Below are positions 58 through 14,868 of a stretch of DNA of 64,000 bases, piece by piece; the first letter of the stretch is position 1, and the number at the start of each line of letters is the position of its first letter. The notes beneath the pieces were generated by a model. The model made no database searches. It had not been told where the DNA came from and saw nothing but the letters and a program-made list of their open reading frames with translations. The stretch covers positions 62,001-126,000 of the forward strand of contig JAFGTT010000038.1 of NCBI GenBank assembly GCA_016933955.1. The letters run 5' to 3'. The position numbers were made by a program, and so were the translations under genes. This DNA is from Candidatus Zixiibacteriota bacterium (GTDB lineage: Bacteria; Zixibacteria; MSB-5A5; GN15; PGXB01).

Positions 58-816
58 GTGAAACAGACATTATTCGTAACACTCAACTTTCTGATCTCGT
101 TTACGATCGGTTATGTCGTCTGGGGCGTTATCCTTAAAGCCCAGCCGGCGGGGACAATCGCCCATTCGGTACATCAGGGCGGACCTCTGGTGGTTGTATT
201 GTTTACCATTCTTCTTATGCTCATTGCTTTTGTGGTTGAAAGGTTTCTATCCCTTTATCGGGTTGCGAAGGGTAAGAGCTCGGTCCAGGTTTTCTTTAAG
301 AAGCTGGTAACGATGCTTCACAGTGACGATTACGACGGTGCCCTGGCCGCCTGTGACAAACAGCGCGGAACGACCGCCAATGTTTTACGGGCCGGGATCG
401 AGAAGTTCCGTTCGATCAAAGACGACGGATCCATCGAACCCGAAAAGAAAATCGCTTTAACCCAGGGTGCTATTGATGAGGCCAACGCTCTCGAGGGGCC
501 GCTCCTGGAAAGAAACCTGATTGCTCTTTCGACCATCGCTTCGATTGCCACCATGGTCGGTCTTCTGGGAACGACAATCGGTATGATTCGCGCCTTTGCC
601 GCGACCGGTAATGTCGAGGGCGGTGTGATCGATGCCCAGTCACTGGCGACCGGTATTTCGGAAGCGCTGGTGAATACGGCCGGCGGTCTGGTTTCCGGTA
701 TTCTCGGAATCTTTTTCTATAATTTCTTTGTTAATAAGGTGGACGCCTTTAACTATACGACCGATGAAGCTACCTTCGAGGTAATACAGATATTAAAGGA
801 CAAGGTGGGTAAGTAA
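58..816 (+). CDS. exbB: ExbB/TolQ/MotA-family proton channel protein
   Basis: Inner-membrane proton-channel subunit that, with ExbD, powers TonB-dependent outer-membrane transport. The 252-residue protein starts at a GTG preceded by GGAGG at 43-47. Hydrophobic segments lie at about residues 5-27, 44-65, 152-180 and 200-228; the last two carry the Gly/Thr-rich channel helices (for example GLLGTTIGMIRAF, then a GGLVSGILG stretch). The first segment is extra compared with the usual three-helix ExbB. A cytoplasmic loop of about 85 residues separates segments 2 and 3. It leads an exbB-exbD-exbD-tonB operon with gaps of 2 to 27 bases. Family assignment is firm; the transported substrate is unknown. 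Confidence 0.93.
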   Translation: MKQTLFVTLNFLISFTIGYVVWGVILKAQPAGTIAHSVHQGGPLVVVLFTILLMLIAFVVERFLSLYRVAKGKSSVQVFFKKLVTMLHSDDYDGALAACDKQRGTTANVLRAGIEKFRSIKDDGSIEPEKKIALTQGAIDEANALEGPLLERNLIALSTIASIATMVGLLGTTIGMIRAFAATGNVEGGVIDAQSLATGISEALVNTAGGLVSGILGIFFYNFFVNKVDAFNYTTDEATFEVIQILKDKVGK

Positions 817-819
817 CTC

Positions 820-1314
820 ATGGCTATAAAGAAAAAAAGGCGTATCGGCGTCGTGCTCGATATGACGCCTATGGTGGATATTACCATCCTCCTGCTCATT
901 TTCTATATGACGACCACGAGTTTCAAACCGCCCGAGGCAAAATCGGTAACTCTGCCGCAATCGCATTCGCAAATCGAGCTACCGGACAAGGACATTATTA
1001 ATATCACGGTGACCAAAAAGGACTCCATTTTTGTCGATTTCCTTCAGAAGGAGGATGTGATTATTGACGGAGTCGAACGGACGACGACCGTAAGGAAAGT
1101 GGCCGAGGCCGATCTTTATAATGTGGCCTCGCTGATCCAGCGGGCGCGCGCCGTTAATTTTCGAGCCTTACTTGTTATCAAAGCCGACCGCGACGCCAGT
1201 TACGGGGTGATGGATAAGATTATGGAATCGATGCGGGAAAACGAACTGACCCGGTTTCTGATTATTACCGATAACGAGGCCGAGACAATCGCCAAAGAAG
1301 AGGCGGGTACATAA
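820..1314 (+). CDS. exbD: ExbD/TolR-family biopolymer transport protein (first copy)
   Basis: Partner of ExbB in the proton-driven motor. The 164-residue protein has a short Lys/Arg-rich cytoplasmic start and one membrane helix at about residues 12-34 containing the family motif DMTPMVD. Asp20 is the expected proton-carrying residue. The rest is a periplasmic ExbD domain. The ATG follows a GGTGGG ribosome-binding site at the end of exbB, three bases after its stop, which implies translational coupling. A second, longer ExbD follows directly, so this motor probably uses two ExbD types. Confidence 0.92.
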   Translation: MAIKKKRRIGVVLDMTPMVDITILLLIFYMTTTSFKPPEAKSVTLPQSHSQIELPDKDIINITVTKKDSIFVDFLQKEDVIIDGVERTTTVRKVAEADLYNVASLIQRARAVNFRALLVIKADRDASYGVMDKIMESMRENELTRFLIITDNEAETIAKEEAGT

Positions 1315-1341
1315 TGACGCCGATTGAAAGGAGTGATATAG

Positions 1342-1989
1342 ATGGCCGGTGGTGCTGTTGCAGAATCAAGTAGATCGCATAAAGGCAAGGGTGGTCGTCG
1401 CAAGAAACGTCGTATTCATGTAAGAATCGATATGACCCCGATGGTCGATATCGTTATGTTGCTTTTGATATTTTACATGGTGACGACGGTTTTCTCGATG
1501 CCGCAGGCGATGGAAATTAACCTGCCGACTGAAAAGGAGACGGATACAATCGAAGTGGCCGAATCGAGACTGCTGACGATAAGGATTGATCAGGAAGACC
1601 GATTTTTCTGGAATATCGGCGATCCGGCTAAAAACACGCCGCAACTTATGCCATCCGTTCTCCCGGCGGGGGATACTCTTGGCTACCTGGTTTCGGCTGA
1701 TTCCCTGCGAAACCTGCTGGTGAACCTGAATCATGATATTCCGAAATTGAATACGCTGATTCTGATAAATAATGAGGCCCGTTATAATTCCATGGTTGAT
1801 ATTCTCGATGAGATTGACCTTCTGGAAAGGTCATGGAATGCCCAGATCGCCAAGGGCCTCGGTAAAAAAGTCGAGGAGCTGAGCCCGGAAGAAAAGTTCT
1901 CCTACCGCTATGCCATGGGCAAGTGGGAAGATACCGATGATCGTATCGTTCAGTATGCCCTCAATGTTGCGCAGGGAGGGGGTGAATAA
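1342..1989 (+). CDS. exbD: ExbD/TolR-family biopolymer transport protein (second copy)
   Basis: A second ExbD paralogue of 215 residues, longer than the first. It has a basic N-terminal tail (residues 14-24 rich in Lys/Arg), then a membrane helix with DMTPMVD, Asp36 being the predicted proton carrier. The periplasmic part is enlarged and ends in an acidic/aromatic tail after about residue 165 that ordinary ExbD proteins lack. The ribosome-binding site AAAGGAG lies at 1327-1333. Two different ExbD proteins after a single ExbB are common in Bacteroidetes-type and delta-proteobacterial TonB loci, so this copy probably forms heteromers with the preceding one. Confidence 0.9.
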   Translation: MAGGAVAESSRSHKGKGGRRKKRRIHVRIDMTPMVDIVMLLLIFYMVTTVFSMPQAMEINLPTEKETDTIEVAESRLLTIRIDQEDRFFWNIGDPAKNTPQLMPSVLPAGDTLGYLVSADSLRNLLVNLNHDIPKLNTLILINNEARYNSMVDILDEIDLLERSWNAQIAKGLGKKVEELSPEEKFSYRYAMGKWEDTDDRIVQYALNVAQGGGE

Positions 1990-1991
1990 CA

Positions 1992-2738
1992 ATGGCTCGA
2001 CCCTATAGTGGAATGTATGGCGGTTACGGCGCCTATGAGCTTAAGGCCAGGTACCAGCGAAATATGTTCGCGGGGACTATTTTTACGGTTCTTCTGGTGG
2101 CCGTGGTCGTCCTGGCGGTTTTCGTCTATCAGCAGTTGACCAAGGTTGAGGCGGTGGCCATGCAACCGACCATTATCAAGACGGTGGCCGATCTCGGTCC
2201 GCCGCCGACAATATCCAAACCGAAACCGAGGGTGGAAATTTCCACACCCAACAAAGCGGCGCCCAAGGTGGGAATTCCCAAACCGGTGGCAGATGATGAT
2301 GTTCTGGACGAGGATGTAGTGATTGCTTCCCGTGATGAAATCGCGGAGATTGTGGCGCCTCCGGTTTCTGCTATTTCCGATGAAGGCGGTGGCGAGATTG
2401 TCGTCGATATCGCCGAGGACGAATTCATGCCGGATATCAATGAATTTGTACCGGTGGAAGTCCCGGCGGAGATGATCTACGAGGAGCCGCCAAATTATCC
2501 CCGTCTGGCCCGTCAGGCCGGTATGGAGGCGGTGGTTTGGGTTAAGGCCCTGGTTGATAAAAATGGCAATGTTCGTGAAGCAGTGGTTTATAAATCTTCC
2601 GGTTCCAAAGCCGGATTCGATGAAGCCGCGGTGGAAGCGGCTTATAAATGCAAATATAAACCGGCAATTCAGAATGGCCGACCGGTGGCTATCTGGGTAG
2701 CTTACTCGGTCGAATTTACTTTGACCGACGCTCACTAA
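1992..2738 (+). CDS. tonB: TonB-family energy transducer (first copy)
   Basis: Couples the ExbBD motor to outer-membrane receptors. The 248-residue protein has an unusually conserved cytoplasmic start (YGAYELKARYQR), one membrane helix at about residues 26-48, a Pro/Lys segment at 58-95, an acidic linker, and a C-terminal TonB domain from about 155 (MIYEEPPNYPRLAR, then VKALVDKNGNV and KYKPAIQNGRPV). The linker is short and acidic rather than the usual long Pro-Lys rod. It starts two bases after exbD and is followed by a strong terminator, so it closes the operon. A near-copy lies at 3041. Confidence 0.93.
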   Translation: MARPYSGMYGGYGAYELKARYQRNMFAGTIFTVLLVAVVVLAVFVYQQLTKVEAVAMQPTIIKTVADLGPPPTISKPKPRVEISTPNKAAPKVGIPKPVADDDVLDEDVVIASRDEIAEIVAPPVSAISDEGGGEIVVDIAEDEFMPDINEFVPVEVPAEMIYEEPPNYPRLARQAGMEAVVWVKALVDKNGNVREAVVYKSSGSKAGFDEAAVEAAYKCKYKPAIQNGRPVAIWVAYSVEFTLTDAH

Positions 2739-2760
2739 GGAAAACTTCACATTAGCTTAA

Positions 2761-2789
2761 CGCCGCCCCTGCACGGGGCGGCGTTTTTT
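2761..2789 (+). terminator. Rho-independent terminator after the exbB-exbD-exbD-tonB operon
   Basis: A perfect 9-bp GC-only stem (CGCCGCCCC at 2761-2769 with GGGGCGGCG at 2775-2783), a five-base loop and six T residues. It lies 22 bases after the tonB stop. Confidence 0.95.
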
Positions 2790-3040
2790 ATCCGTTCAAT
2801 ATATATCTGACCAGGGAAGAAAATCGAATTTCACCTGTAATCGATATTAGAGGCATTAATCGTTAAACGGATCAATCCGGGGAAGCGTCATTTCATATAG
2901 AGCGATAAACCGGACAAGGTCGTAAGATTTGGGTATTTTCAGCACCGACCGGTGATCATCTCGTTACGATAATATTCCCGGAATTCCGGGCCTCATATAA
3001 ATGACCAGCATGTCCCCGCCTTCGAAAGGAGGATACAACT
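2790..3040 (+). other. Leader region between the two tonB genes
   Basis: About 250 bases with no convincing reading frame. It must contain the promoter of the second tonB, because a strong terminator closes the preceding operon, but no clear -35/-10 pair was recognised. A short palindrome CACCGACCGGTG lies near 2943-2954. A ribosome-binding site AAAGGAGG lies at 3026-3033, just before the ATG at 3041. Confidence 0.4.
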
Positions 3041-3814
3041 ATGAACCGATCCGGTCGGATCGCCGGAATGCCCTACGGGGCTTATGAACTCAAAGCCACC
3101 TATCAGCGCAGTATGCTACTGGGGACATTGAGTACGATTATCATGACAACCATGATTATCGGGGGGTTGCACTTATATCTGTTGTATTCTCCAGAGAGAA
3201 TAATTATTGAAGCCCGAACACCCCCAATAATCGGCGGCATATCTCAGCCATCTCCACCGCCATCGGTCGAGCGCGATAAACCGAATATTTCCGGAAAAAG
3301 ACGCCCGGCCGTGATCAACTCAGAAATTCACAATAGGCCGGTGCTGGTCGATGATAGTCTGTTATTGGAAGTCGAGGATAACAACCTGTCGACAAATGCG
3401 GAAATAGGCGAATTCTTAAATGGTGTTTATGGTGCCGGTGGGGGTGATACCGGTGAAGGAGACAGAACTTTTAATTATTGCGGAAACGGGACCGTCCCGG
3501 AATATCCATTGATCGACAGCGTCTTCTTTGTCGAGCAGTTACCGGTCATGATTTATGAGGAGCCGCCCGATTATCCGAGGCCGGCCCGGATGGCGGGGAT
3601 TGAGGGTATGGTCTGGATTAAGGCGCTGGTAGATAAGAATGGCAATGTGATCGAGGCGGTTGTGTTCAAATCATCGGGTACCCGGGCGGGATTGGATGAG
3701 GCGGCCCGCCAGGCGGCTTTCGAATGCAAGTATAAACCGGCCATACAAAACGGTTATCCGGTTCCCGTTTGGGTAACCTATAAGGTGGAATTCCGATTGA
3801 GGGATTCAAGATAA
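3041..3814 (+). CDS. tonB: TonB-family energy transducer (second copy)
   Basis: A 257-residue paralogue of the preceding TonB. It shares the cytoplasmic GAYELKATYQR motif, a membrane helix at about residues 27-48 and an almost identical C-terminal TonB domain (MIYEEPPDYPRPAR, VKALVDKNGNV, KYKPAIQNGYPV). The middle differs: a shorter Pro-rich part and a Gly-rich insertion around residues 128-165 with a lone Cys. It has its own ribosome-binding site and its own terminator, so it is a separate transcription unit with no ExbB/ExbD of its own, and it probably shares the upstream motor. The two copies look like a local duplication with diverged linkers, perhaps serving different receptors. Confidence 0.92.
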   Translation: MNRSGRIAGMPYGAYELKATYQRSMLLGTLSTIIMTTMIIGGLHLYLLYSPERIIIEARTPPIIGGISQPSPPPSVERDKPNISGKRRPAVINSEIHNRPVLVDDSLLLEVEDNNLSTNAEIGEFLNGVYGAGGGDTGEGDRTFNYCGNGTVPEYPLIDSVFFVEQLPVMIYEEPPDYPRPARMAGIEGMVWIKALVDKNGNVIEAVVFKSSGTRAGLDEAARQAAFECKYKPAIQNGYPVPVWVTYKVEFRLRDSR

Positions 3815-4026: not shown

Positions 4027-4055
4027 TTGACAACTGCACAAATGTGCAGTATATA
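4027..4055 (+). promoter_or_regulatory. Near-consensus promoter with a palindromic operator in its spacer (candidate LexA/SOS box)
   Basis: TTGACA at 4027-4032 and TATATA at 4050-4055 are separated by exactly 17 bases. The spacer is occupied by the perfect inverted repeat ACTGCACA-AA-TGTGCAGT (4033-4050), whose last base is also the first base of the -10. A repressor bound here would cover both promoter hexamers. The core TGCAC-AAAT-GTGCA fits the pattern TGCNC-N4-GTGCA that I recall being reported for the LexA box of Fibrobacter succinogenes, another FCB-group bacterium. The genes downstream (zinc ribbon, helicase, Lon-like protease) suit a damage response. The promoter is seen directly; assignment to LexA is inference. 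Confidence 0.75.
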
Positions 4056-4099
4056 TGTTTGGAGTCGATAATTAATCATATGGAGAAGGAGAATCGATC

Positions 4100-4291
4100 A
4101 TGATAAACGAACTTGGGCAATCTGTCTCCGGAATTGAAACCACCCCTATTGTTACAGGGCGGGATAAGGAACCGATCCGGCGGGAAATTCGGTTTGATTC
4201 GAATTTGGTCTGTCCGGACTGCGGGGTGTCGCTGGTACGGCTGGGCACCTGTTTTACCTGTCCGCGATGTGGTTTCGGCGGCTGTGAATGA
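4100..4291 (+). CDS. Small zinc-ribbon protein resembling the C-terminal tail of B12-dependent ribonucleotide reductase
   Basis: A 63-residue protein with a charged, poorly conserved N-terminal half and a C-terminal zinc ribbon: CPDCG at 38-42, CFTCPRCG further on, and a final GGCE. The spacing and the GTC-x-x-C-x-x-CG-x-x-x-GC ending resemble the C-terminal redox/zinc tail of class II NrdJ reductases, but no catalytic barrel is present. The start has GAGAAGGAGA just upstream. It is the first gene after the palindromic operator and lies about 50 bases before the helicase, so the two are probably co-transcribed. It could be an orphan NrdJ tail, a helicase partner or a generic zinc ribbon; the function is unknown. 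Confidence 0.7.
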   Translation: MINELGQSVSGIETTPIVTGRDKEPIRREIRFDSNLVCPDCGVSLVRLGTCFTCPRCGFGGCE

Positions 4292-4342
4292 AAGCAAGGG
4301 GGCGGTTTTGAAAGCACTTGTTTTTATAGGGAGGTTTTTCAG

Positions 4343-7039
4343 ATGAGACTTGGGAATCTGGTCAAATTCGATATTCCGGAATCGATTATCGAGGTTTGGA
4401 AGAGGCGCCAGGGCGATTATCTGCTTCCTCTTCAGGAAAAGGCGATCCGAAGCGGTTTGCTCCCGACCGGAGACGGTGCCCCAACTGACAATCTTTTGAT
4501 CTCCGCGCCGACATCATCGGGGAAATCATTCTGCGGTGAAATCGCGGCGGTGGGTTCGCTTCTGAAACGTCGCAAGGCAGTGATGCTTCTGCCGCTTAAA
4601 TCGATTGCCGAGGAGAAATATCATTATTATCGGTCATGTTATCGATCGCTGGGTTTGAGAATTCTGATTGTCACCGGCGATCATCCGGAAAACGATGGCG
4701 CTTTTGAACTGGGGAATTTTGATCTGGTCCTGGCGATTTATGAGAAATTCAATCGTTTGCTGACGGTCAATCCCGATTTATTGCAGCAGATCGGGTTGGT
4801 TATTGTAGATGAATTACAGATGCTTTCCGATCCCGGGCGCGGTCCGGAGCTGGAGATGGTCCTCGGCAAAATGCTCAGTTTTCCTTATTCGCCGCGGCTG
4901 GTGGCTCTCTCAGCGGTTCTGGGCGAATCATCGCCGGAGATCACGACCTGGTTGAATTGCCGGGTGATTCAGGAAACCGTTCGGCCGGTGGATCTGCTGG
5001 AAGGCGTGGCGAGTGGCGGGTGTTTTCGTTTTCGGTCGTTCAACAGCGGGCGGGAAGGGAAAGAGCGGATGGAACTGGGGGGTGGTGATGGCGACGATTC
5101 GGGAGTCGGGGGGATTATAGATTTTCTGGCCGGGAGTGAAAGCCCGCGTCTGGTATTTCTCAAATCCCGGCGGGATACTATCGATGCGGCTCTTCGTCTG
5201 GCCGCGGCGGTGAACTGGGGTCCGGCGGGGATGGCTCTTGACGCTATTGAAGGCGAAGAACCGGGGTTTTTAATTAATTCGTTGAAACAGGTTCTAAATC
5301 GGGGAGTGGCTTTTCATAGCGCCGATTTGACTCCGCGGCAACGGCGGGCCGTTGAAAACGGTTATCGCCGGGGCGAAATCCGGGTGGTTTTTTCCACTAC
5401 GACCTTGGCGATGGGAGTTAATCTGCCGGCCGAAATGGTATTGCTGGAAACCATGAAATATGTTTCCGGGGCACCAGGCGGAAAACCGTCCCTGGTTCCG
5501 ATCAGCCTGACGGAATTCCGGAATATTTCCGGGCGGGCGGGACGGTTTGGGTGGGGCGGTTCGGAGAAGCCGGGTCGGGCGGTGGTCCTGGCAAGATCGG
5601 ATTTTGAGTATGAAATTCTCTGGTCGGAATATATCGGGGCCGGGTCAAATGAAAAACTGGTTTCGGCGCTGGGCGGTTACTCGCGGGCCGATCTGGTGCT
5701 TGACCTGATTGTTTCCGGATTGGGGGCGGATATGTCACGGCTTCTATCGACGGTGAATAATATGTTGTACTATCGATGTCACGGCGCCCTGACGGAAAAT
5801 GAGATTGAACCGGTGGTGGCGGAATTGCAAACGGCGGGTCTGATCCGTTCCTCCCTGGAAGCTACACCCCTCGGAGCGGCGGTGGCTGAGAGCGGGATTA
5901 AGATCGAAAGCGCCCGTCATTACCTGCGGTTGCTCGATGAAAAACAGCCGGCCACCATGGTCGGCTGGTTGTTCCTGGCCCTGAGCGCTTCGGAATTCGA
6001 TGTGGCTCGTTCCGGGATGTTGTCCCCGGAATATTATCGTCGCACCTACGAACGGGTTTTGCACCGTCATTTCAGCGAGTATATCGGGGAAATCAGTGCC
6101 TACAGCGAAATTGATATCGGTCGGGAACCGCTGGGATACCGCATGATGGCGCTTTTGAAGGCGGTCTTTATGCTGACTGATTGGGCCGGGAAGCTTCCGG
6201 TCAGCCGGCTGGAGCGGCGATACCGGTTGCATCACGGGCAAATTCTCAACCAGGCCGAGACAGCCGCCTGGCTTTTGGCTTCGCTGGGGCGGTTGATCCA
6301 TGCCCGGGACTGCCATTCCCGAATACCGGCCGAATTAGCCGATCTGGCCTTTCGGGTGCAGTTCGGGATCGATCCGGCCATGAAAGAAATCCATTGTCTG
6401 ACCGGGGATATACTTAATCGGGCCGATTATGGAATGCTGGAGGAGCGCAATATTCGATCACTGGATGACCTTCGGTGGACACCTGAAGAAAGTCTTCGGG
6501 AAATCATTCGGCCGGAGAATAAATTTCGCCGGCTTAAAAAAGAAATAGACAATTTGGAACAGGAGGATAAAATGCAGGAAACAACCAGCAGTCAGATGAT
6601 CCCCATGAGGGGGATAAAAGGCGGGAGCAATTCTTTTATAAATTCCGCCGGTTCCCGACCTTCGTTGCTTGAGCTCGACGGCAGTTATGAGCGGGAGAGG
6701 TATCTGGTAAGAATCGACGGTTTTCCGGTGCGTCTGACCGGAAAATCGTTCAAATATCTGGCGAAACTGGCTTCGTCGCGGATTCATGGTAATGATGGCT
6801 GGATTTACAAAGATGATATCGAGATAGGTTTCAACCAGGCCCGTTATTTGTACCGGTTGAAGCAGGAGATGAAAGCCGGCGGGGTAGGCTGGGGTATATT
6901 CGAGAATAATCGTCTCGGTTACTACCGGCTGGATCTTGACCCGGGCCGGGTAAAACTTAATCTCCATAATCTTAAGAGTCACTCGGACTATGAGTTGCGC
7001 CAGATCGCCCAGGATCTGGAACTCAAGATGGCCAGTTAA
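4343..7039 (+). CDS. Ski2/Hel308-like DExH helicase with a C-terminal winged-helix domain
   Basis: A superfamily-2 helicase of 898 residues. Visible motifs are Walker A APTSSGKS at 55-62, motif Ib-like LPLKSIAEEKY, the DExH box DELQ at 156-159, motif III LSAVLG near 189, motif V near 350-360 and motif VI NISGRAGRFG from 394. Winged-helix and ratchet regions follow, with an HhH-like stretch near 690-720. The last part, about residues 785-872, reads like an OmpR-type winged helix (LTGKSFKYLAKLA, then ARYLYRLKQEM and NRLGYYRL), an unusual fusion for this family. The ribosome-binding site GGGAGG lies at 4329-4334. It is probably under the 4027 promoter with the zinc ribbon. A role in DNA repair or replication restart is inferred from family and operator. 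Confidence 0.88.
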   Translation: MRLGNLVKFDIPESIIEVWKRRQGDYLLPLQEKAIRSGLLPTGDGAPTDNLLISAPTSSGKSFCGEIAAVGSLLKRRKAVMLLPLKSIAEEKYHYYRSCYRSLGLRILIVTGDHPENDGAFELGNFDLVLAIYEKFNRLLTVNPDLLQQIGLVIVDELQMLSDPGRGPELEMVLGKMLSFPYSPRLVALSAVLGESSPEITTWLNCRVIQETVRPVDLLEGVASGGCFRFRSFNSGREGKERMELGGGDGDDSGVGGIIDFLAGSESPRLVFLKSRRDTIDAALRLAAAVNWGPAGMALDAIEGEEPGFLINSLKQVLNRGVAFHSADLTPRQRRAVENGYRRGEIRVVFSTTTLAMGVNLPAEMVLLETMKYVSGAPGGKPSLVPISLTEFRNISGRAGRFGWGGSEKPGRAVVLARSDFEYEILWSEYIGAGSNEKLVSALGGYSRADLVLDLIVSGLGADMSRLLSTVNNMLYYRCHGALTENEIEPVVAELQTAGLIRSSLEATPLGAAVAESGIKIESARHYLRLLDEKQPATMVGWLFLALSASEFDVARSGMLSPEYYRRTYERVLHRHFSEYIGEISAYSEIDIGREPLGYRMMALLKAVFMLTDWAGKLPVSRLERRYRLHHGQILNQAETAAWLLASLGRLIHARDCHSRIPAELADLAFRVQFGIDPAMKEIHCLTGDILNRADYGMLEERNIRSLDDLRWTPEESLREIIRPENKFRRLKKEIDNLEQEDKMQETTSSQMIPMRGIKGGSNSFINSAGSRPSLLELDGSYERERYLVRIDGFPVRLTGKSFKYLAKLASSRIHGNDGWIYKDDIEIGFNQARYLYRLKQEMKAGGVGWGIFENNRLGYYRLDLDPGRVKLNLHNLKSHSDYELRQIAQDLELKMAS

Positions 7040-7166
7040 ATCAGGGAACGTACAGGCAGGGATATGCGTTTTATATGATAGAAATGGACGGATGAACGAA
7101 TATTGCCGATTTGGCCCGTTTAAAAAATGTAATTCGGGCCGATATGACTTAGAAAAGGGACGGAAA

Positions 7167-9599
7167 ATGATTCTGAAGCGGACTTCGCATATCCCCATCC
7201 TGGCTTCCCGAGGCACGCCGGAAATCCCGGTGATAGCTGTCAAGACGCTTGTTTTGTTTCCTGGTGAACTCGTTACCCTGCAATTGAAAAAGCCTGAAAA
7301 CCTGGCACTGATAAGAGAATACGCCGAAAGCCGGAAGGAGGTCGCTATTGCCTATACTCCCCGGGGTGATTATGAACATGGTCGGGCGGACCTGTGTCAG
7401 ATTGGCACAGCGGCCCGGATAGTCTCGGCTAAACAGGGTCCGGGGGATTCGCAGGTCATAGTTCTGGAAGGTCTGGGACGGATAGAATTAAAAGCGATCG
7501 GGCACAAAACGCCGTATTTGATGGCCAGAATTGCTTTCATTGATGAGGATCATTATACGGCCGGACCATCCGAAAAATTGTTCCATGAGATACTTGATAT
7601 AGCGCGACAGATAATAACGACCAGTCCGGCCTATCCCAACGAGTTATTATCCGATTTTGAACTGGGTCAGGATAATCCGGGACAATTCGCCGATCGTCTG
7701 GTCAGCACCCTGCATCTGCCGACTGAAAACAAGCAAAAAATTCTGGAGGCGATAAATGTTGATACCCGGTTTAAGAGGTTGACTCGATTTATGAAACTGG
7801 AATTACAGCGGGCGATTTTTTTATCGGAAGATGCGGTTTTGCCACATGATTCGGGTTTCGGAGCCAAAGGATTTCCTGATCGAGATAACTCACAGCTTGA
7901 TTTTATTCGGGATCTCAGGGAGAAAGTAAATGGCAATAAGACGCTTCCGGAGGAAGTCCGGGAACGGTGTCATCTGGAAATCAACCGGCTGAATTATCTT
8001 TCGACGGCTTCGGCCGAACATGGAACCACCAGCCAGTATATAAAATGGCTGATGAAGGTCCCCTGGAATGTGGTCCATCAGACCCGTTTCGATCTGGAGC
8101 AGTTGGAACAGGATATCGATAAGGAGTATTACGGCTCGAAAAGTATTAAGAAAAGAATTCTGGAGCGAATTGCGGTCAGAAAATTGACCGGGGATGGCAG
8201 TGATCGCTCGATTCTCTGTCTGGCGGGCATGGCCGGGACGGGCAAAGCCTCGCTGGCCAAGGCCATTGCCAAAGCTCTCAAAAAGGAATTTGTCCGGGTT
8301 TCGGTCGGGGGTGTACGGGAAGCTTCGGAAATTAAGGGCATGCCGCGAACTTATGTTGGGGCCGGTCCGGGTATGATAATTCGGACATTATGTGAGGCAG
8401 AGACATCCGACCCGGTTATTTTAATCGAGGATATTGATTATTTCAGCGAGGAATCGAGTACTTCGCTCTCGACTGCCCTGCTGGAAGCCATCGATCCCCG
8501 GTATAACTACCGGTTTCTTGATAAATACCTGGGTGTGGCGATTGATTTAAGCCGGGCGACTTTTATTTGTACTGTCAAATCATCCGAGGAAATTCCGGAG
8601 ATTTTCGCCAATCGATTCGAAATAATCGAGTTGACCGGTTATATTGAGAAAGACAAAATCCGTATTGCCCGCAAATATATCATACCCGATGTTTTGAAAA
8701 AGCACGGTCTTCTGAAACGGGATATTATCTTCAATGAAAAGGGCCTTCAAAAGATAATAAGGAATTATACGCTTGAAGCGGGTTTGCTTCATCTTAAGAG
8801 GAAAATCCAGATGATTTGCCGTCATGTGGCCAAGGAGAAAGCGGCCGGGGTGACGCGGGTTTGGAAAGTCAATGAGCGAACGGTGGAGAGTTTGTTGGGG
8901 ACGCCGCAGTATATTCCGGAAACACCCGGCAAGCAGCCCGAAATCGGGGTTGCCATCGGTCTGGCCTGGACCGGACAGGGAGGGGATTTGATGCTGATCG
9001 AAGGGTTGAAGATGAAGGGGAGCGGTGAGGTAATCACGACCGGTTCACTGGGCGAAGTGATGAAGGAGTCGATTACGGCGGCCCACAGCTATGTCCGCTC
9101 CAAGGCAGATGTTCTTGGAATCGATCACGCCGATTTCGATAATTTCGATATTCATATTCATTTTCCTTCAGGGGCGATCCCTAAAGACGGACCATCGGCT
9201 GGAGTGGCGGTATCGCTGGTAATCGCTTCGGTAATGTCGGAGCGCCCGATTCCCAATAATATTGCCATGACCGGGGAGGTAACATTGCGGGGGAAGGTTC
9301 TCCAGGTGGGTGGGCTGGTGGAAAAAATTTCTGCGGCATACCGGGCCGGAATCCAGACTGTATTTGTCCCGCGAGAGAGCAAAAAAGATTTAAAAAACCT
9401 TCCGGCCGATATATTGAAAAAAACCAGGTTTGTGTTTATCGAGACGGTCGATGAAGTATTCGCACAGGGGTTGCTTGATTTCGTGCCATCCAGTTATACC
9501 CTTGAGAAATTATTCGCCGACGAAATTAAGAAAGCCAAAAGCCGCAAGAAATCACATGCCACCCGGAGTATCGCGGCTAAAGGTCGCAAAAAGAAATAA
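7167..9599 (+). CDS. Lon-family protease with an intact Ser-Lys dyad but degenerate ATPase motifs
   Basis: LonA-type architecture in 810 residues: N-terminal substrate-binding domain (VLFPGE), AAA+ module, S16 protease. The protease is intact: Ser677 in KDGPSAG and Lys720 in GGLVEK, 43 residues apart, the same spacing as Ser679/Lys722 of E. coli Lon. The ATPase is not: Walker A reads GMAGTGKA (354-361), with Ala361 where Thr/Ser should follow the Lys; Walker B reads ILIEDID with Glu421-Asp422 in place of Asp-Glu; and the sensor-1 Asn is Lys471. The Arg-finger region ANRFEIIEL is kept. ATG 7167 was chosen because upstream in-frame codons overlap the helicase end and look non-Lon. It is probably a paralogue with weak or no ATP hydrolysis, comparable in concept to LonC. 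Confidence 0.88.
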   Translation: MILKRTSHIPILASRGTPEIPVIAVKTLVLFPGELVTLQLKKPENLALIREYAESRKEVAIAYTPRGDYEHGRADLCQIGTAARIVSAKQGPGDSQVIVLEGLGRIELKAIGHKTPYLMARIAFIDEDHYTAGPSEKLFHEILDIARQIITTSPAYPNELLSDFELGQDNPGQFADRLVSTLHLPTENKQKILEAINVDTRFKRLTRFMKLELQRAIFLSEDAVLPHDSGFGAKGFPDRDNSQLDFIRDLREKVNGNKTLPEEVRERCHLEINRLNYLSTASAEHGTTSQYIKWLMKVPWNVVHQTRFDLEQLEQDIDKEYYGSKSIKKRILERIAVRKLTGDGSDRSILCLAGMAGTGKASLAKAIAKALKKEFVRVSVGGVREASEIKGMPRTYVGAGPGMIIRTLCEAETSDPVILIEDIDYFSEESSTSLSTALLEAIDPRYNYRFLDKYLGVAIDLSRATFICTVKSSEEIPEIFANRFEIIELTGYIEKDKIRIARKYIIPDVLKKHGLLKRDIIFNEKGLQKIIRNYTLEAGLLHLKRKIQMICRHVAKEKAAGVTRVWKVNERTVESLLGTPQYIPETPGKQPEIGVAIGLAWTGQGGDLMLIEGLKMKGSGEVITTGSLGEVMKESITAAHSYVRSKADVLGIDHADFDNFDIHIHFPSGAIPKDGPSAGVAVSLVIASVMSERPIPNNIAMTGEVTLRGKVLQVGGLVEKISAAYRAGIQTVFVPRESKKDLKNLPADILKKTRFVFIETVDEVFAQGLLDFVPSSYTLEKLFADEIKKAKSRKKSHATRSIAAKGRKKK

Positions 9600-10051: not shown

Positions 10052-12382
10052 ATGATACGTCGCTTGTTCCTTCTCGCTTTGCTGTTGGTCTGTGCCTTCG
10101 GGAACGCCGATGGGACAACCGTGAGGGCAGTAGCGAATCCGGAACTGGTTCCCGGCCTGATTGAGGTGGGAGCACCGTTTAAGATTGAGATTTACATGAA
10201 CAATGATGATGGGGAGCATGTCGGCTATAGTATGCCGTTCGCCTTTTACAGCCCCGATGCCAGCATCAGCAACGTCGTTCATGTCAATGTTGGTGCGTAT
10301 GGACCCGACAGCTCGATTGAATTGCTTAACGGGTGGGAGTCTTTATGGGTTTTTCTTAATGAGTGGACTACATTCAGTTGGGATGGAGTTCTGCCGGATA
10401 CCATCAACCATAGCGTGGCGGCCTTGAATGGCTGGCTACCCGGAAGCGGTGATCTGGTTCGTATCAAGTTCAATTATCAAATCGATGAAGAAGGGTCTTT
10501 TTGTATCGATTCGGTGAGTATTCCCAATACTTCGCCACCGGGAAAACTTGACTGGTTGTTCGATTTTCCGACCACTTTCAGCGGTCCATACTGCTGGGAA
10601 GTGGGTGAACTTCCCACCGATCCTGAAATCGGTGTGGATCTCGATTCGCTGATATTCGAATCCGTTCAGGGGGAATCGGCGCCCCCGGCCCAGGTAATGC
10701 ATATTTCCAACACGGGGGTTGGGACTCTCAATTGGAACGCCAGCTGGAACTCCAGCTGGCTCGGGGTTTCTCCTTCACATGGGACGGCCCCCTCAATTGT
10801 CCAGATCTACGTAAATCCAACCGGGTTGGGAGTCGGTGTGCATGAGGATACCATTACCATTTCGGATCCGAATGCCACCAATAACCCGGTAAGGATACCG
10901 GTTCGTTATACCATAACGGAACCACCGCCCGAGATACTATTATCACAGACATTTTTCAGTTTCAATGCCATTGCCGACTCAACCAATCCCCCCGATCAAT
11001 TTCTGACGATTTACAATGACGGGGGGGGAAGTTTATCCTGGACCGCGACCAATTCCGAAAGCTGGTTGACGCTCACGCCGACATCTGGCGGCGATGGTGA
11101 TCAGATTACCCTTTCGGTTGATATTACCGGATTGGCCTATAATACCTATTTTGATACGGTTGTCATTACCGATGATAATGCTTCCAACAGCCCCCAGCTG
11201 GCTGTTGTCCGGCTGGAGGTTGCCTCGAGTCTGCCGATTCTGGCCACCGATACATCGTATATAGTGATTCCGGTCGATACCGATTATCCTTTTCCGGCCG
11301 ACCGATATTTCACCATTTATAATGACGGGGCTGGAACCATGAACTACTACCTGCAGACATCCTCGATCCGGATTGCGTCATTAACTCCGGATTCCGGATC
11401 GGTTCCGCAGACGGTGACAATTGCCTTCGATTCGATTGCCTGTGTCCCGGGGAGTGTTCTGTTTGATACTGTTTATATATATTCTCTGGAAGCGTTGAAT
11501 TCACCTCAGATTGTCATATTGCAGTATAACTGTAGCGCCGCCCCGCCGCGAATAATAATAAGCAAGGATTCGGTTTTCGCCCAGATTTACGAGTGCAGCC
11601 AGGGAACAGGATCGGTTATCAGACCATCCTTTACAGTTTATAACGATGGTTCGGAGACATTTTCATATAACCTGACTTGGAATTCGACCTGGCTTTTGCC
11701 CAGTCCGGTCAGTGCCGAAGAACCGAAAACGATTTATCTTGATTTCGATTATTACGGCATGGTCCCGGGATTTTATTATGATACAGTAACCGTCTGGGCC
11801 TATAATGCCATAAACAATCCTCAATCAATCCCGATTATCCTGCAGATCAAGGAAACCGATCTCCCGGCCCTGATAACGGTCAATAAGAGCCAATTTTCTT
11901 TTGTCGCTCAGGAGAATCGGACCGACAAAGACTACTGGATCAGGATCAACAATGCCAGTCCCGGATGTATGGAGTGGGATATTGAGGAGGATATATCCTG
12001 GATTGAATTCGGCATCGATACGACCTCTGATCAGCGATATCCGTGGTTTGTGAGAATCATGCCTAATGCTTATGGCATCACCATGGGTCATTATTATGAC
12101 ACGGCCAATGTGGTTTCGGCGACGGCCTCCAATTCCCCCTTCCCCATTACGTTTGATATAACGGTCTGGAAACTGCGCGGGGATGTCAATTATAATGGGG
12201 TCATCAATATCCTCGATGTTACCTATTTGATGCGCTATATCTATGCCGGCGGTCCGGCGCCGATGCCGGTTGATTATGTGGGTGATGTCAATTGTGATGG
12301 TTTTATCAATGTCCTCGATATCACCCTGCTGTTCCGCTATATCTATATAGACCAGAGTCCGTTATGCGGTAATCCCTATTAA
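10052..12382 (+). CDS. Secreted protein with tandem BACON-like domains and C-terminal dockerin-type repeats
   Basis: A 776-residue exported protein. A signal peptide (MIRRLFLLALLLVCAFG) is followed by a cohesin-like or beta-sandwich domain to about residue 185, then about five repeats of roughly 95-100 residues. Each repeat has a nascent FTIYNDG or HISNTG strand, a W-L/x-x-P-x-x-G element and a DTVxI-DxNAxNxPxxIP ending, typical of BACON/ASPM-like Ig domains. The C-terminus carries two dockerin-type calcium-binding segments (GDVNYNGVINILD and GDVNCDGFINVLD). It has a good ribosome-binding site, its own promoter and its own terminator. It is probably a cell-surface or extracellular binding protein; the ligand is unknown. 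Confidence 0.85.
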   Translation: MIRRLFLLALLLVCAFGNADGTTVRAVANPELVPGLIEVGAPFKIEIYMNNDDGEHVGYSMPFAFYSPDASISNVVHVNVGAYGPDSSIELLNGWESLWVFLNEWTTFSWDGVLPDTINHSVAALNGWLPGSGDLVRIKFNYQIDEEGSFCIDSVSIPNTSPPGKLDWLFDFPTTFSGPYCWEVGELPTDPEIGVDLDSLIFESVQGESAPPAQVMHISNTGVGTLNWNASWNSSWLGVSPSHGTAPSIVQIYVNPTGLGVGVHEDTITISDPNATNNPVRIPVRYTITEPPPEILLSQTFFSFNAIADSTNPPDQFLTIYNDGGGSLSWTATNSESWLTLTPTSGGDGDQITLSVDITGLAYNTYFDTVVITDDNASNSPQLAVVRLEVASSLPILATDTSYIVIPVDTDYPFPADRYFTIYNDGAGTMNYYLQTSSIRIASLTPDSGSVPQTVTIAFDSIACVPGSVLFDTVYIYSLEALNSPQIVILQYNCSAAPPRIIISKDSVFAQIYECSQGTGSVIRPSFTVYNDGSETFSYNLTWNSTWLLPSPVSAEEPKTIYLDFDYYGMVPGFYYDTVTVWAYNAINNPQSIPIILQIKETDLPALITVNKSQFSFVAQENRTDKDYWIRINNASPGCMEWDIEEDISWIEFGIDTTSDQRYPWFVRIMPNAYGITMGHYYDTANVVSATASNSPFPITFDITVWKLRGDVNYNGVINILDVTYLMRYIYAGGPAPMPVDYVGDVNCDGFINVLDITLLFRYIYIDQSPLCGNPY

Positions 12383-12407
12383 TTCTAAAGCAGAGAAAAT
12401 TTTGGTT

Positions 12408-12440
12408 AAGGCCGCTTCGACAAATGAAGCGGTCTTTATT
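12408..12440 (+). terminator. Rho-independent terminator after the BACON/dockerin gene
   Basis: An 11-bp stem (AAGGCCGCTTC at 12408-12418 with GAAGCGGTCTT at 12426-12436, including one G-T pair), a seven-base loop and a T-rich tail. Confidence 0.9.
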
Positions 12441-12540
12441 TTTATTCCGCTGGCAGGGAAAATCCTCGCTGTTTTTCCATGGTGATACGTAAATCAATAA
12501 ATGAAATAAACTTATGTCCGATAATCGGAATAAATAGAGG

Positions 12541-12568
12541 TTGACAAAATTGCCGGTTATTGTATTTT
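12541..12568 (+). promoter_or_regulatory. Sigma70-type promoter of the secreted M1 aminopeptidase
   Basis: TTGACA at 12541-12546, a 16-base spacer and TATTTT at 12563-12568 with an upstream TG. The same hexamer pair and spacing recurs at 50763-50790. Confidence 0.65.
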
Positions 12569-12633
12569 TAAAATATACTTCATTTTACCGGACAGGCAGA
12601 TATTTGATAAAACCATAGTCTGAAAGAAGCGAT

Positions 12634-14868
12634 ATGAAAAAATTTATGGGTCCTATCGTTCTGACAATCCTCACTTTATTAAGCAGTCCATCGGCCATTA
12701 TGGCAATCAATCCTCTTGACAACTCGGTTGATTATGAAAAACTATCACCATCGGAAATTCATGAAATTATGGGTCGGATGAAGGCCGGGGAACTGGAAAA
12801 GGCCCGGGCTTTTGCGGCGGAGGCGGCCAAGGCGGCTTCTCTTTATGACCAGACGGAATATGATGTAAAATTTTATGATGTCAATATTGCTGTCGATATG
12901 CCTTCAACCAGTATCTATGGCGATGTTTTGATAGAGGCGGCCGCAACCGTCAACGGGCTGGATTCGGTGGAGATTGACCTTTATAATAACCTGATAATTG
13001 ATTCGGTTTATATTCCGACCGGGCAATTAAATTATCTTCATGCATCGAACAAAATTTATATTGAAATTGACCGGCTGTATGATCAGGGTGAAGTTTTTTC
13101 TTTCCGGATTCGGTATCATGGGGTTCCGGTCGGGACCGGTCTCGATGGTTTTTCTTTCGATACTCTCGGCACCGGGGATCTGGTGATCTCAACGCTGTCG
13201 GAGCCGATGTCGGCTCGAACGTGGTGGCCATGTAAAGATCGACCCGATGACAAGGCCGATTCCATGAATAGCGCCATTACCTGCGACACGGCTTATTTCT
13301 GCGCCTCCAACGGTATCCTGATTGATACTGTCCGTAACGGTGACGGGACGTGGACTTTCGATTACCATATTCGCTACCCGATCACCACCTATCTATTTTC
13401 TCTGGCCATCTCGAACTATTCCGTCTGGCATGATTGGTATCACTACGGCGATAATGATTCCATGATAATCATCAATCACGTTTATCCAAGCCTGTATTTT
13501 TATTCTCAAACCAAATTAAATGTCACCCCGACGGCTATCGGGGTTTATGCCGGTCTGTTCGGGGAGTATCCGTTTATCAACGAGAAATATGGCCATGCCA
13601 ATTTCGAATGGGGCGGAGCGATGGAACACCAGACAGTGACCTCGACCAGCAGCAGCACCTTCGGTTTCAAAGAACAGGTGTTGGTGCACGAGTTGGCGCA
13701 TCAGTGGTGGGGAGATATGATAACCTGCGAGAGCTGGCATGATATCTGGCTCAACGAAGGTTTTGCATCATACTGCGAGGCTCTTTATTTCGAGACAATC
13801 GACAGCAAAGCGCATTACCATGCTTATATGGATTCGATGACATTTCTGTCGGGGGGATCGATATATATCATTGATACAACTGATGTCTGGAATATTTTCG
13901 GATCAATCGTTTATGACAAAGGGGCCTGGGTCCTTCATATGCTTCGCCATGTCGTCGGCGATGCAACCTTTTTCGATATTATGACCGCCTATTATAACAG
14001 CCCTTACCAGTATGGAAGCGCCGTCACCGATGATTTCAAGGAAGTCTGCGAATCGGTTTCGGGTATGGATCTCGATGCCTTTTTTGAGCAGTGGATTTAC
14101 GGCACCTATTATCCCAAGTATTACTGGACGTACATGTGCGAGCCGGATGTGAATGAAGGTGGTTACTGGACATACCTGTATCTGGAACAGGGGCAGGCCA
14201 CCACCCCGCTGGTGTTTGAAATGCCGATCGATCTGGTTTTCAGGTCGATCTCGGGAACCGATACAACCGTGCTTGATAACGATGTGCGGAAAAAGATGTA
14301 TATGTTTAAAACCGATGATTCGACCACCGATTTACAACTCGATCCAATGAAGTGGATTCTGAAAGAATCGTATGAAATAATGTGGAAATACCACCAGATT
14401 TCGTTTCCGCTCGATACCGGTATACAATATACCTCGTATCTCGATTCGATTATTGTCCGGGGCGGAACCGGTCTGAATATTTTCAAGGTAACATCCGGAT
14501 CGCTACCGGGCGGACTGGCCATCGATACGCTGACCGGTTATATATCCGGGGTTCCGACGGAATTCGGGGAATTCACTTTCAGCATTTATGCCAAAGATCG
14601 GGGTAGCTCATATAGCGAAACGGTGGAATATAACATGTATATCGAGGAAGGGACGGCCATTCCGGGGGATGCCAATTTCAGCGGCGGGGTGAATATTCTC
14701 GATGTTACTTTCCTTATTACTTATCTGTACCTGAGCGGACCGGCGCCTTCAGTCCCCGATCAGGGTGATCCGGATGCCTCCTGTGCCATTAATATTCTGG
14801 ATGTCACTTACCTGATAAATTACCTTTATAAAAGCGGTCCGGCGCCGCTCTGGGGTTGTGCCGGATAA
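12634..14868 (+). CDS. Secreted M1-family metallo-aminopeptidase with a putative Ig domain and dockerin repeats
   Basis: A zinc aminopeptidase exported across the inner membrane, 744 residues. It has an N-terminal signal peptide (to about residue 24), the M1 beta-domain, a substrate motif GAMEH, and the catalytic zinc site HELAH (His352, Glu353, His356) followed by Glu375 in NEGFAS, matching HExxH-x18-E. After the catalytic part come an Ig-like putative domain at about 600-670 (LPGGLAIDTLTGYISGVPTEFG type) and two dockerin-type repeats, each ending in SGPAP. Fusion of M1 peptidase with Ig and dockerin modules suggests surface or vesicle display for peptide scavenging. It has its own promoter and terminator. 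Confidence 0.92.
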   Translation: MKKFMGPIVLTILTLLSSPSAIMAINPLDNSVDYEKLSPSEIHEIMGRMKAGELEKARAFAAEAAKAASLYDQTEYDVKFYDVNIAVDMPSTSIYGDVLIEAAATVNGLDSVEIDLYNNLIIDSVYIPTGQLNYLHASNKIYIEIDRLYDQGEVFSFRIRYHGVPVGTGLDGFSFDTLGTGDLVISTLSEPMSARTWWPCKDRPDDKADSMNSAITCDTAYFCASNGILIDTVRNGDGTWTFDYHIRYPITTYLFSLAISNYSVWHDWYHYGDNDSMIIINHVYPSLYFYSQTKLNVTPTAIGVYAGLFGEYPFINEKYGHANFEWGGAMEHQTVTSTSSSTFGFKEQVLVHELAHQWWGDMITCESWHDIWLNEGFASYCEALYFETIDSKAHYHAYMDSMTFLSGGSIYIIDTTDVWNIFGSIVYDKGAWVLHMLRHVVGDATFFDIMTAYYNSPYQYGSAVTDDFKEVCESVSGMDLDAFFEQWIYGTYYPKYYWTYMCEPDVNEGGYWTYLYLEQGQATTPLVFEMPIDLVFRSISGTDTTVLDNDVRKKMYMFKTDDSTTDLQLDPMKWILKESYEIMWKYHQISFPLDTGIQYTSYLDSIIVRGGTGLNIFKVTSGSLPGGLAIDTLTGYISGVPTEFGEFTFSIYAKDRGSSYSETVEYNMYIEEGTAIPGDANFSGGVNILDVTFLITYLYLSGPAPSVPDQGDPDASCAINILDVTYLINYLYKSGPAPLWGCAG

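Follow-up and report, generated by a model that had tools for sequence, protein, structure and literature searches.

A predicted LexA-controlled operon of a zinc-ribbon protein and a Hel308-like helicase, followed by a probably ATPase-poor Lon, in Zixibacteria

In published accounts, bacterial SOS regulons centre on lexA, recA and error-prone polymerases, the last forming their conserved core (PMC8565304). Hel308 helicases have been described from archaea and metazoans (PMC10484726, PMC3905894); Haloferax without Hel308 is sensitive to mitomycin C and shows more recombination (PMC10484726), and human cells become more sensitive to the same drug when HELQ is lost (PMC3778836). Among Lon proteases, MtaLonC is an ATP-independent enzyme degrading unfolded substrates (PMC3391209). 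A cassette with likenesses to each of these systems lies at positions 4027-9599 of a 64,000-nucleotide (nt) stretch, hereafter the window, of contig JAFGTT010000038.1 from a Candidatus Zixiibacteriota bacterium, whose genome comprises 3.38 Mb in 38 contigs. It consists of three genes, encoding a zinc-ribbon protein, a Hel308-like superfamily-2 helicase and a LonA-type protease, all intact and consecutive on the + strand behind one promoter at 4027-4055.

The best explanation, to which we assign a probability of about two-thirds, is that 4027-7039 constitutes an SOS operon for a Hel308/HELQ-like helicase and its adaptor, and that Lon is an ATPase-poor protease produced mainly from a leader of its own. 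Like described LexA regulons, the locus carries a LexA-type palindrome over its promoter, which is common to lexA and, in single genomes, to imuA-imuB and dinB; unlike them, its phylum has the Hel308-like helicase with the zinc ribbon as the commonest conserved target observed. The helicase resembles Hel308/Hjm and HELQ in its motor domains, ratchet domain and overall fold, and likely in working at forks and recombination intermediates, but differs from them in being bacterial, in its predicted LexA control and in a putative additional winged helix of the OmpR/PhoB type.

A LexA-type palindrome in the promoter

The promoter, located upstream of the zinc-ribbon gene, reads TTGACA-ACTGCACAAATGTGCAGT-TATATA and is composed of a -35 hexamer (TTGACA, 4027-4032, + strand), an 18-bp perfect palindrome (4033-4050, no strand assigned) and a -10 element (TATATA, 4050-4055, + strand), the first base of which is common to the palindrome. 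This palindrome, the predicted LexA operator, occupies the 17-bp promoter spacer. The genome contains a single gene for a LexA DNA-binding domain, and the lexA promoter has the architecture of the cassette, namely TTGACA, followed by the operator TCTGAACATATGTGCAG occupying a 17-bp spacer, followed by TATAGT. The operator is common to the cassette and to lexA of the same genome, and is very probably a LexA box. The LexA motif of Fibrobacter is TGCNCN4GTGCA. Some 2 kb beyond lexA in the downstream direction, and sharing its strand, is a DinB-like polymerase gene (own-genome C27, L207, L008), and a small gene, DUF559-like by eye, lies between the two.

Across the phylum, the motif CTGCACN4GTGCAG is present in 72 of 132 genomes, compared with 4 for the reversed control. 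At least 75 such sites exist, and for the 75 listed, coordinates place 53 in the 1 kb preceding the helicase and 9 ahead of lexA. Seven of the 13 remaining sites were inspected, revealing three further cassettes (G002, G067, G089), one imuA-imuB locus (G003) and one dinB locus (G007), with two or more sites lacking a recognised target (G065, G085, G094). At the imuA-imuB locus (L188, G003:C142) the box precedes the apparent imuA-imuB genes, and at the dinB locus (L189, G007:C6) it stands one small gene ahead of a dinB-like polymerase, both judged by eye from translations. At position 2086 of L187 (G065:C50), a perfect LexA-type box is found 5' of a run of small unknown genes that include neither lexA, nor a polymerase, nor the helicase cassette. 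The variant ACTGAACN4GTNCAGTA occurs in 12 of 132 genomes, with six sites before the helicase and three near lexA according to coordinates, one without gene assignment and two that appear chance-like.

Looked at from the side of the genes, 56 helicase loci offered 850 nt or more of upstream sequence, and 44 of them carry a box there that matches at least 9 of 10 positions (38 of them at 10/10), against a mean of 0.86 and a maximum of 5 in dinucleotide shuffles and none in 56 control windows inside the helicase gene; given this recurrence, the operator is not a chance occurrence. Boxes of at least 8/10 were likewise found upstream of 23 of 29 lexA genes, versus 2.1 in shuffles. The 44 aligned cassette boxes share a near-invariant CTTGACA immediately 5' of the operator and the phylum consensus TATWTT after it, so that the overlap of operator and promoter seen in the window is conserved in its relatives. 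A damage-inducible unit of zinc ribbon and helicase is well supported on these sequence grounds, and to this extent the damage response proposed in the sequence-only reading of the window is supported, through the operator common to lexA and its phylum-wide conservation; its extension to Lon is considered below.

It is highly improbable that the palindrome is the operator of another repressor and the cassette a stress or defence module in place of an SOS operon. Such an assignment could appeal to remote similarity between the helicase and HamB defence helicases and between Lon and BrxL, but the HamB matches cover the shared motor domains alone and are weaker than those to Hel308, and the same palindromic element is found in the promoters of lexA, imuA-imuB and dinB. 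Furthermore, unlike a patchy defence gene, the helicase is encoded in 124 of 132 phylum genomes (76 of the 78 of high quality), and no relatives of its C-terminal domain were found in the plasmids or viral contigs searched. No phage match extended over 80% of the helicase length. A defence-system identity, considered from padloc matches, was rejected, the matches being limited to shared motor or protease domains.

The helicase and its zinc-ribbon partner

The helicase gene (4343-7039, + strand) encodes a protein of 898 amino acid residues, of which about residues 1-730 (4343-6532) make up the Hel308-like part, with motor domains, ratchet domain 4 and a helical domain. Pfam families PF00270, PF00271 and PF21280 (ratchet) were all detected over their cut-offs, demonstrating superfamily-2 motor motifs together with ratchet domain 4. 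NCBIfam models of Hel308 type matched with E-values down to 2e-86, below their cut-offs, and the Hel308 equivalog scored 207 bits against a cut-off of 1200; on sequence criteria the protein is a relative of Hel308 and not a member of the NCBIfam equivalog. The profile match to the Hel308 structure 2p6r reached an E-value of 3e-125, and the predicted structure (pLDDT 90.3) had Hel308 proteins as its best Foldseek matches among those listed, with a TMt of 0.88 to 9b15 chains, indicating a Hel308 fold over the whole chain.

Beyond residue 770, the protein continues into an extra domain, which is an addition to the Hel308 plan and holds much of the strictest conservation of the family (GWIYKxDIExGFNQARYLYRLK...ENNRLGYYRL). 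Modelled alone (pLDDT 86.5), this domain shows the topology of OmpR/PhoB-type DNA-binding domains, with beta strands, three helices and a C-terminal hairpin. Among the matches listed, Foldseek retrieved OmpR/PhoB-type domains (best E-value 0.05, probabilities up to 0.99), and VIA gave Z-scores of 7.3-9.4, nearly all to the same type, the highest being 9.4 to BaeR (root-mean-square deviation 2.7, 90 residues aligned). The structural models thereby support, as a fold assignment, an OmpR/PhoB-type winged helix at about residues 776-872 (6668-6958, + strand), in agreement with the winged-helix helicase suspected from the sequence-only reading.

The zinc-ribbon gene (4100-4291, + strand) encodes 63 amino acid residues with a C-terminal CPDC-x9-CxxCPRC...C pattern. 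Of 61 loci, 45 have an open frame with CxxC...CxxC in the 1.1 kb preceding the helicase, among them those of the most distant families; some of the misses fall at contig ends and some were recovered by tblastn (L057, L071). The pairing of helicase and zinc ribbon extends to these distant families, in which the ribbon module of the small protein is doubled (L087, L088, L091-L096), while several loci without a zinc ribbon have the box directly ahead of the helicase (e.g., L077, L079, L081). The one hint to the function of the zinc ribbon is a faint similarity to the end of B12-dependent ribonucleotide reductase (E-value 2.8e-5, 22.5 bits, far below the model cut-off).

A degenerate Lon with a leader of its own

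The third gene (7167-9599, + strand) encodes a LonA-type protease of 810 amino acid residues with a degenerate AAA+ module and an intact Ser-Lys dyad. A start at 7170 was rejected, as the ATG sits at 7167; some Lon searches used the protein without its first Met. The protein scored 618.5 bits with TIGR00763 (cut-off 608.05) and shares with LonA proteases the N domain, the AAA+ module, and a P domain with an A-type protease site, in which Pro precedes the catalytic Ser677 (K-D-G-P-S-A-G, codon 9195-9197) and the spacing to the partner Lys720 (9324-9326) is conserved. Three full-length Lon proteins are encoded in the genome, of which the other two retain all nine residues examined; the Lon of the window is a third paralogue, from a clade of its own with members across the phylum.

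Residues were mapped by alignment to 6u5z together with the E. coli numbering in PMC9569914. Compared with E. coli Lon, the Walker A motif GPPGVGKT is changed to GMAGTGKA (8226-8249, + strand), with the catalytic Thr replaced by Ala, Walker B DE is changed to ED, sensor-1 Asn to Lys and sensor-2 Arg to Leu, so that functional Walker A, Walker B and sensor residues are not retained, whereas the Walker A Lys, the arginine finger and the Ser-Lys dyad are. Loss of the arginine finger, at first deduced from a VIR motif, was ruled out by the same numbering and alignment, the finger being retained in the order. In 42 copies from the order of the window (families f1-f4), Walker A Thr is replaced by Ala in all 42, Walker B Asp by Glu in 41 and Glu by Asp in 42, and neither sensor-1 Asn nor sensor-2 Arg survives in any of the 42; conversely, the Walker A Lys is kept in 41, the arginine finger and catalytic Ser in 42, and the catalytic Lys in 41, with one gap. 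Since these substitutions are fixed in 42 relatives, they cannot be attributed to chance. Families f5, f9 and f10 are intermediate, keeping the Walker A Thr in four of eight copies, with Ser in two and Ala in two; among 19 unlinked copies from other families, 18 have Thr and one Ser, and Walker B or the sensors are altered in most. From this distribution, the loss of ATPase residues is old and has proceeded furthest in the order in which Lon stands behind the helicase.

The Lon of the window has probably lost its motor, judging by these residues, as its description as ATPase-deficient had anticipated; nucleotide binding may persist, to judge from the Lys and arginine finger that remain. It differs from LonA in its AAA+ module, where four to five residues with catalytic or sensor roles are missing, a loss fixed throughout the order. 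With LonC (MtaLonC), whose clade is marked by two insertions specific to it, the Lon of the window has in common a non-functional AAA-like module and an intact protease, but it keeps an N domain of LonA type as well as the arginine finger, and LonA proteins are its best matches in the Protein Data Bank; the loss of ATPase residues in the two is probably separate.

Linkage of this third Lon to the helicase was tabulated from the best hit in each of 102 genomes, 'elsewhere' including contig breaks; the rows, comprising all 75 listed box sites, the helicase places and 13 picked LexA places, were copied by hand. L041-L044 were left out of the loci as presumed duplicates of genomes already included (for L043, presumed without a check). 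Within the order, 60 of 71 genomes have Lon following the helicase on the same strand, 50 of them at a distance of no more than 600 nt and another 10 at up to 8 kb; of the other 11, one carries Lon on the opposite strand, and in 10 it is found elsewhere or on a different contig. Linkage was also observed in 9 of 11 genomes of families f5, f9 and f10, and in none of the 20 tabulated genomes of other families. In the window, the gap between helicase and Lon measures 127 nt (7040-7166, + strand), and no terminator-like site was found in either this gap or that between zinc ribbon and helicase. The three genes behind one promoter, the 127-base gap and the missing terminators all match the sequence-only reading, and so does the co-occurrence of the genes in relatives on which it had hinged.

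The helicase-Lon gap nevertheless carries conserved leader elements. In the family of the window, GGAACG...GCGGTTT follows the helicase stop and CCGATA precedes the Lon start (7045-7144); GGAACG (7045-7050, + strand), a possible alternative -35 element, is invariant in seven aligned gaps, and CCGATA (7139-7144, + strand) is conserved 5' of the Lon start. Over 37 helicase-Lon gaps, CCGAT[AT] was detected in 32, compared with 5.0 in shuffles, and TTGAC[AT] in 18, compared with 2.9. CCGATA is also kept in all five Lon genes separated from the helicase within the order, and not in the 17 outgroup leaders examined. At 25 unlinked Lon loci (L167-L186, L195-L199), no convincing LexA box was found near Lon: the few 9/10 matches lack the consensus flanks, and a 10/10 site in L199 is on the helicase side. 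Because conserved leader elements are kept in unlinked Lon genes of the order and no convincing LexA box accompanies them, Lon probably has its own promoter, with read-through from the predicted SOS promoter being possible. Near these elements there is an inverted repeat, the arms of which differ between relatives (leaders L045-L053, L195-L199); it is possibly an RNA hairpin or part of an alternative sigma-factor promoter. The leader sequence GCCGATAA also resembles a flagellar sigma -10 element.

These data leave about an even chance that the SOS unit consists of zinc ribbon and helicase alone and that Lon, as a separate protease with its own promoter and a housekeeping or stress role, is merely adjacent and unrelated to DNA damage. 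The conserved leader within helicase-Lon gaps argues for this, as do the unlinked Lon genes of the order, all five of which retain CCGATA and which lack a LexA box at 9/10 (apart from one in L199 just upstream, unlike the consensus), and the position of the third Lon away from the helicase in all 20 tabulated outgroup genomes. Against it speak the same-strand downstream adjacency in 60/71 and 9/11 genomes despite helicase identity down to about 35%, and the terminator-free gap of the window. A place for Lon in the same damage transcript, as suggested by the sequence-only reading, is not established; that reading would have lost ground to unlinked genes, or to a separate Lon promoter combined with no damage response; the linkage holds, and the conserved leader and the unlinked Lon genes without a convincing LexA box point to such a promoter, one half of the second condition.

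At the opposite end stands a single machine, in which the helicase displaces proteins from damaged DNA, the zinc ribbon serves as adaptor and an ATPase-dead Lon degrades what is displaced. Conservation of gene order agrees with this, as does the Walker A Thr, lost in 42/42 order copies, replaced by Ala in 2/8 copies of f5, f9 and f10, and present as Thr or Ser in 19/19 unlinked outgroup copies; with a separate Lon leader and many families having cassettes without Lon, however, it is unlikely.

Proposed function and significance

Returning to the reading of an SOS operon followed by a separately led Lon, LexA bound across the -35/-10 spacer would block RNA polymerase, and RecA-stimulated LexA cleavage upon damage would free the promoter, leading to co-production of zinc ribbon and helicase. 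The helicase, as a Hel308/HELQ-like enzyme, would load where stalled forks or intermediates of recombination offer single-stranded DNA, move 3'-5', unwind or re-anneal strands and remove bound proteins, thereby limiting recombination and letting replication resume; by analogy, a fork or recombination role is the most likely one. Anchoring of the helicase on duplex DNA would fall to the PhoB-type winged helix, and the zinc ribbon would act as a small adaptor. The LonA-type protease may bind nucleotide but should hardly hydrolyse it; its most likely activity is to cleave proteins that are already unfolded or are handed over to it, with no ATP-driven unfolding. The protease would be made mainly from its own leader, plus some read-through from the SOS promoter.

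A number of observations weigh against this reading. In the own genome, CTGNACN4GTNCAG has three exact matches in 3.38 Mb (lexA, this cassette, and one on contig C19 that is probably due to chance), and since a reversed control pattern gave two, this count is weak on its own. Unlike described LexA regulons, the own genome shows no clear box at recA or at its Y-family polymerase genes: no site of 8/10 was present in the recA surroundings, and a single chance-like 8/10 site occurs near one of the two polymerase genes, which would make the predicted regulon unusually small. Across the phylum, 12 of the 56 cassette loci have no box that reaches 9/10, and 6 of 29 lexA genes fall below 8/10, with no clear box. 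As regards the helicase, the F/YHHAGL of Hel308 motif IVa is replaced by FHSADL at residues 324-329 (family consensus FHNADL). The PhoB-type match is one of fold alone, with Foldseek E-values of about 0.05 or worse, and because no Pfam family recognised the C-terminal domain in the 28 members searched, the winged-helix assignment stays at fold level.

Directly upstream of the cassette (58-3814) is an ExbB/ExbD/TonB-like transport cluster, assigned by eye, the second TonB of which (3041-3814) was identified by Pfam; directly downstream of Lon (10052-14868) are a BACON-domain protein and an M1 peptidase, each with a dockerin-type tail.

No description of the cassette was found in literature titles and abstracts, a coverage that leaves out most subscription papers, so that one may be in print. 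The survey covered Zixibacteria, and restriction to this phylum is not claimed, other phyla having had no systematic search. Read as above, the cassette is an SOS operon with a core absent from the titles and abstracts found, and may represent a so far unrecognised way in which bacteria, here those of a little-studied phylum, respond to DNA damage. It is distinctly unlikely that the whole phylum has rebuilt its SOS core around a Hel308-type helicase with a PhoB-type domain, a zinc-ribbon partner and an ATPase-dead Lon taking helicase-stripped proteins; if true, this would be a helicase-coupled protease, with the helicase standing in for the protease's own motor. As it stands, the Hel308-like helicase is, across a bacterial phylum, the gene most widely preceded by a box, and offers a testable case for the role of such helicases in bacteria, and the fixed, progressive loss of ATPase residues beside an intact protease site provides a natural series on how a LonA may function without a motor.

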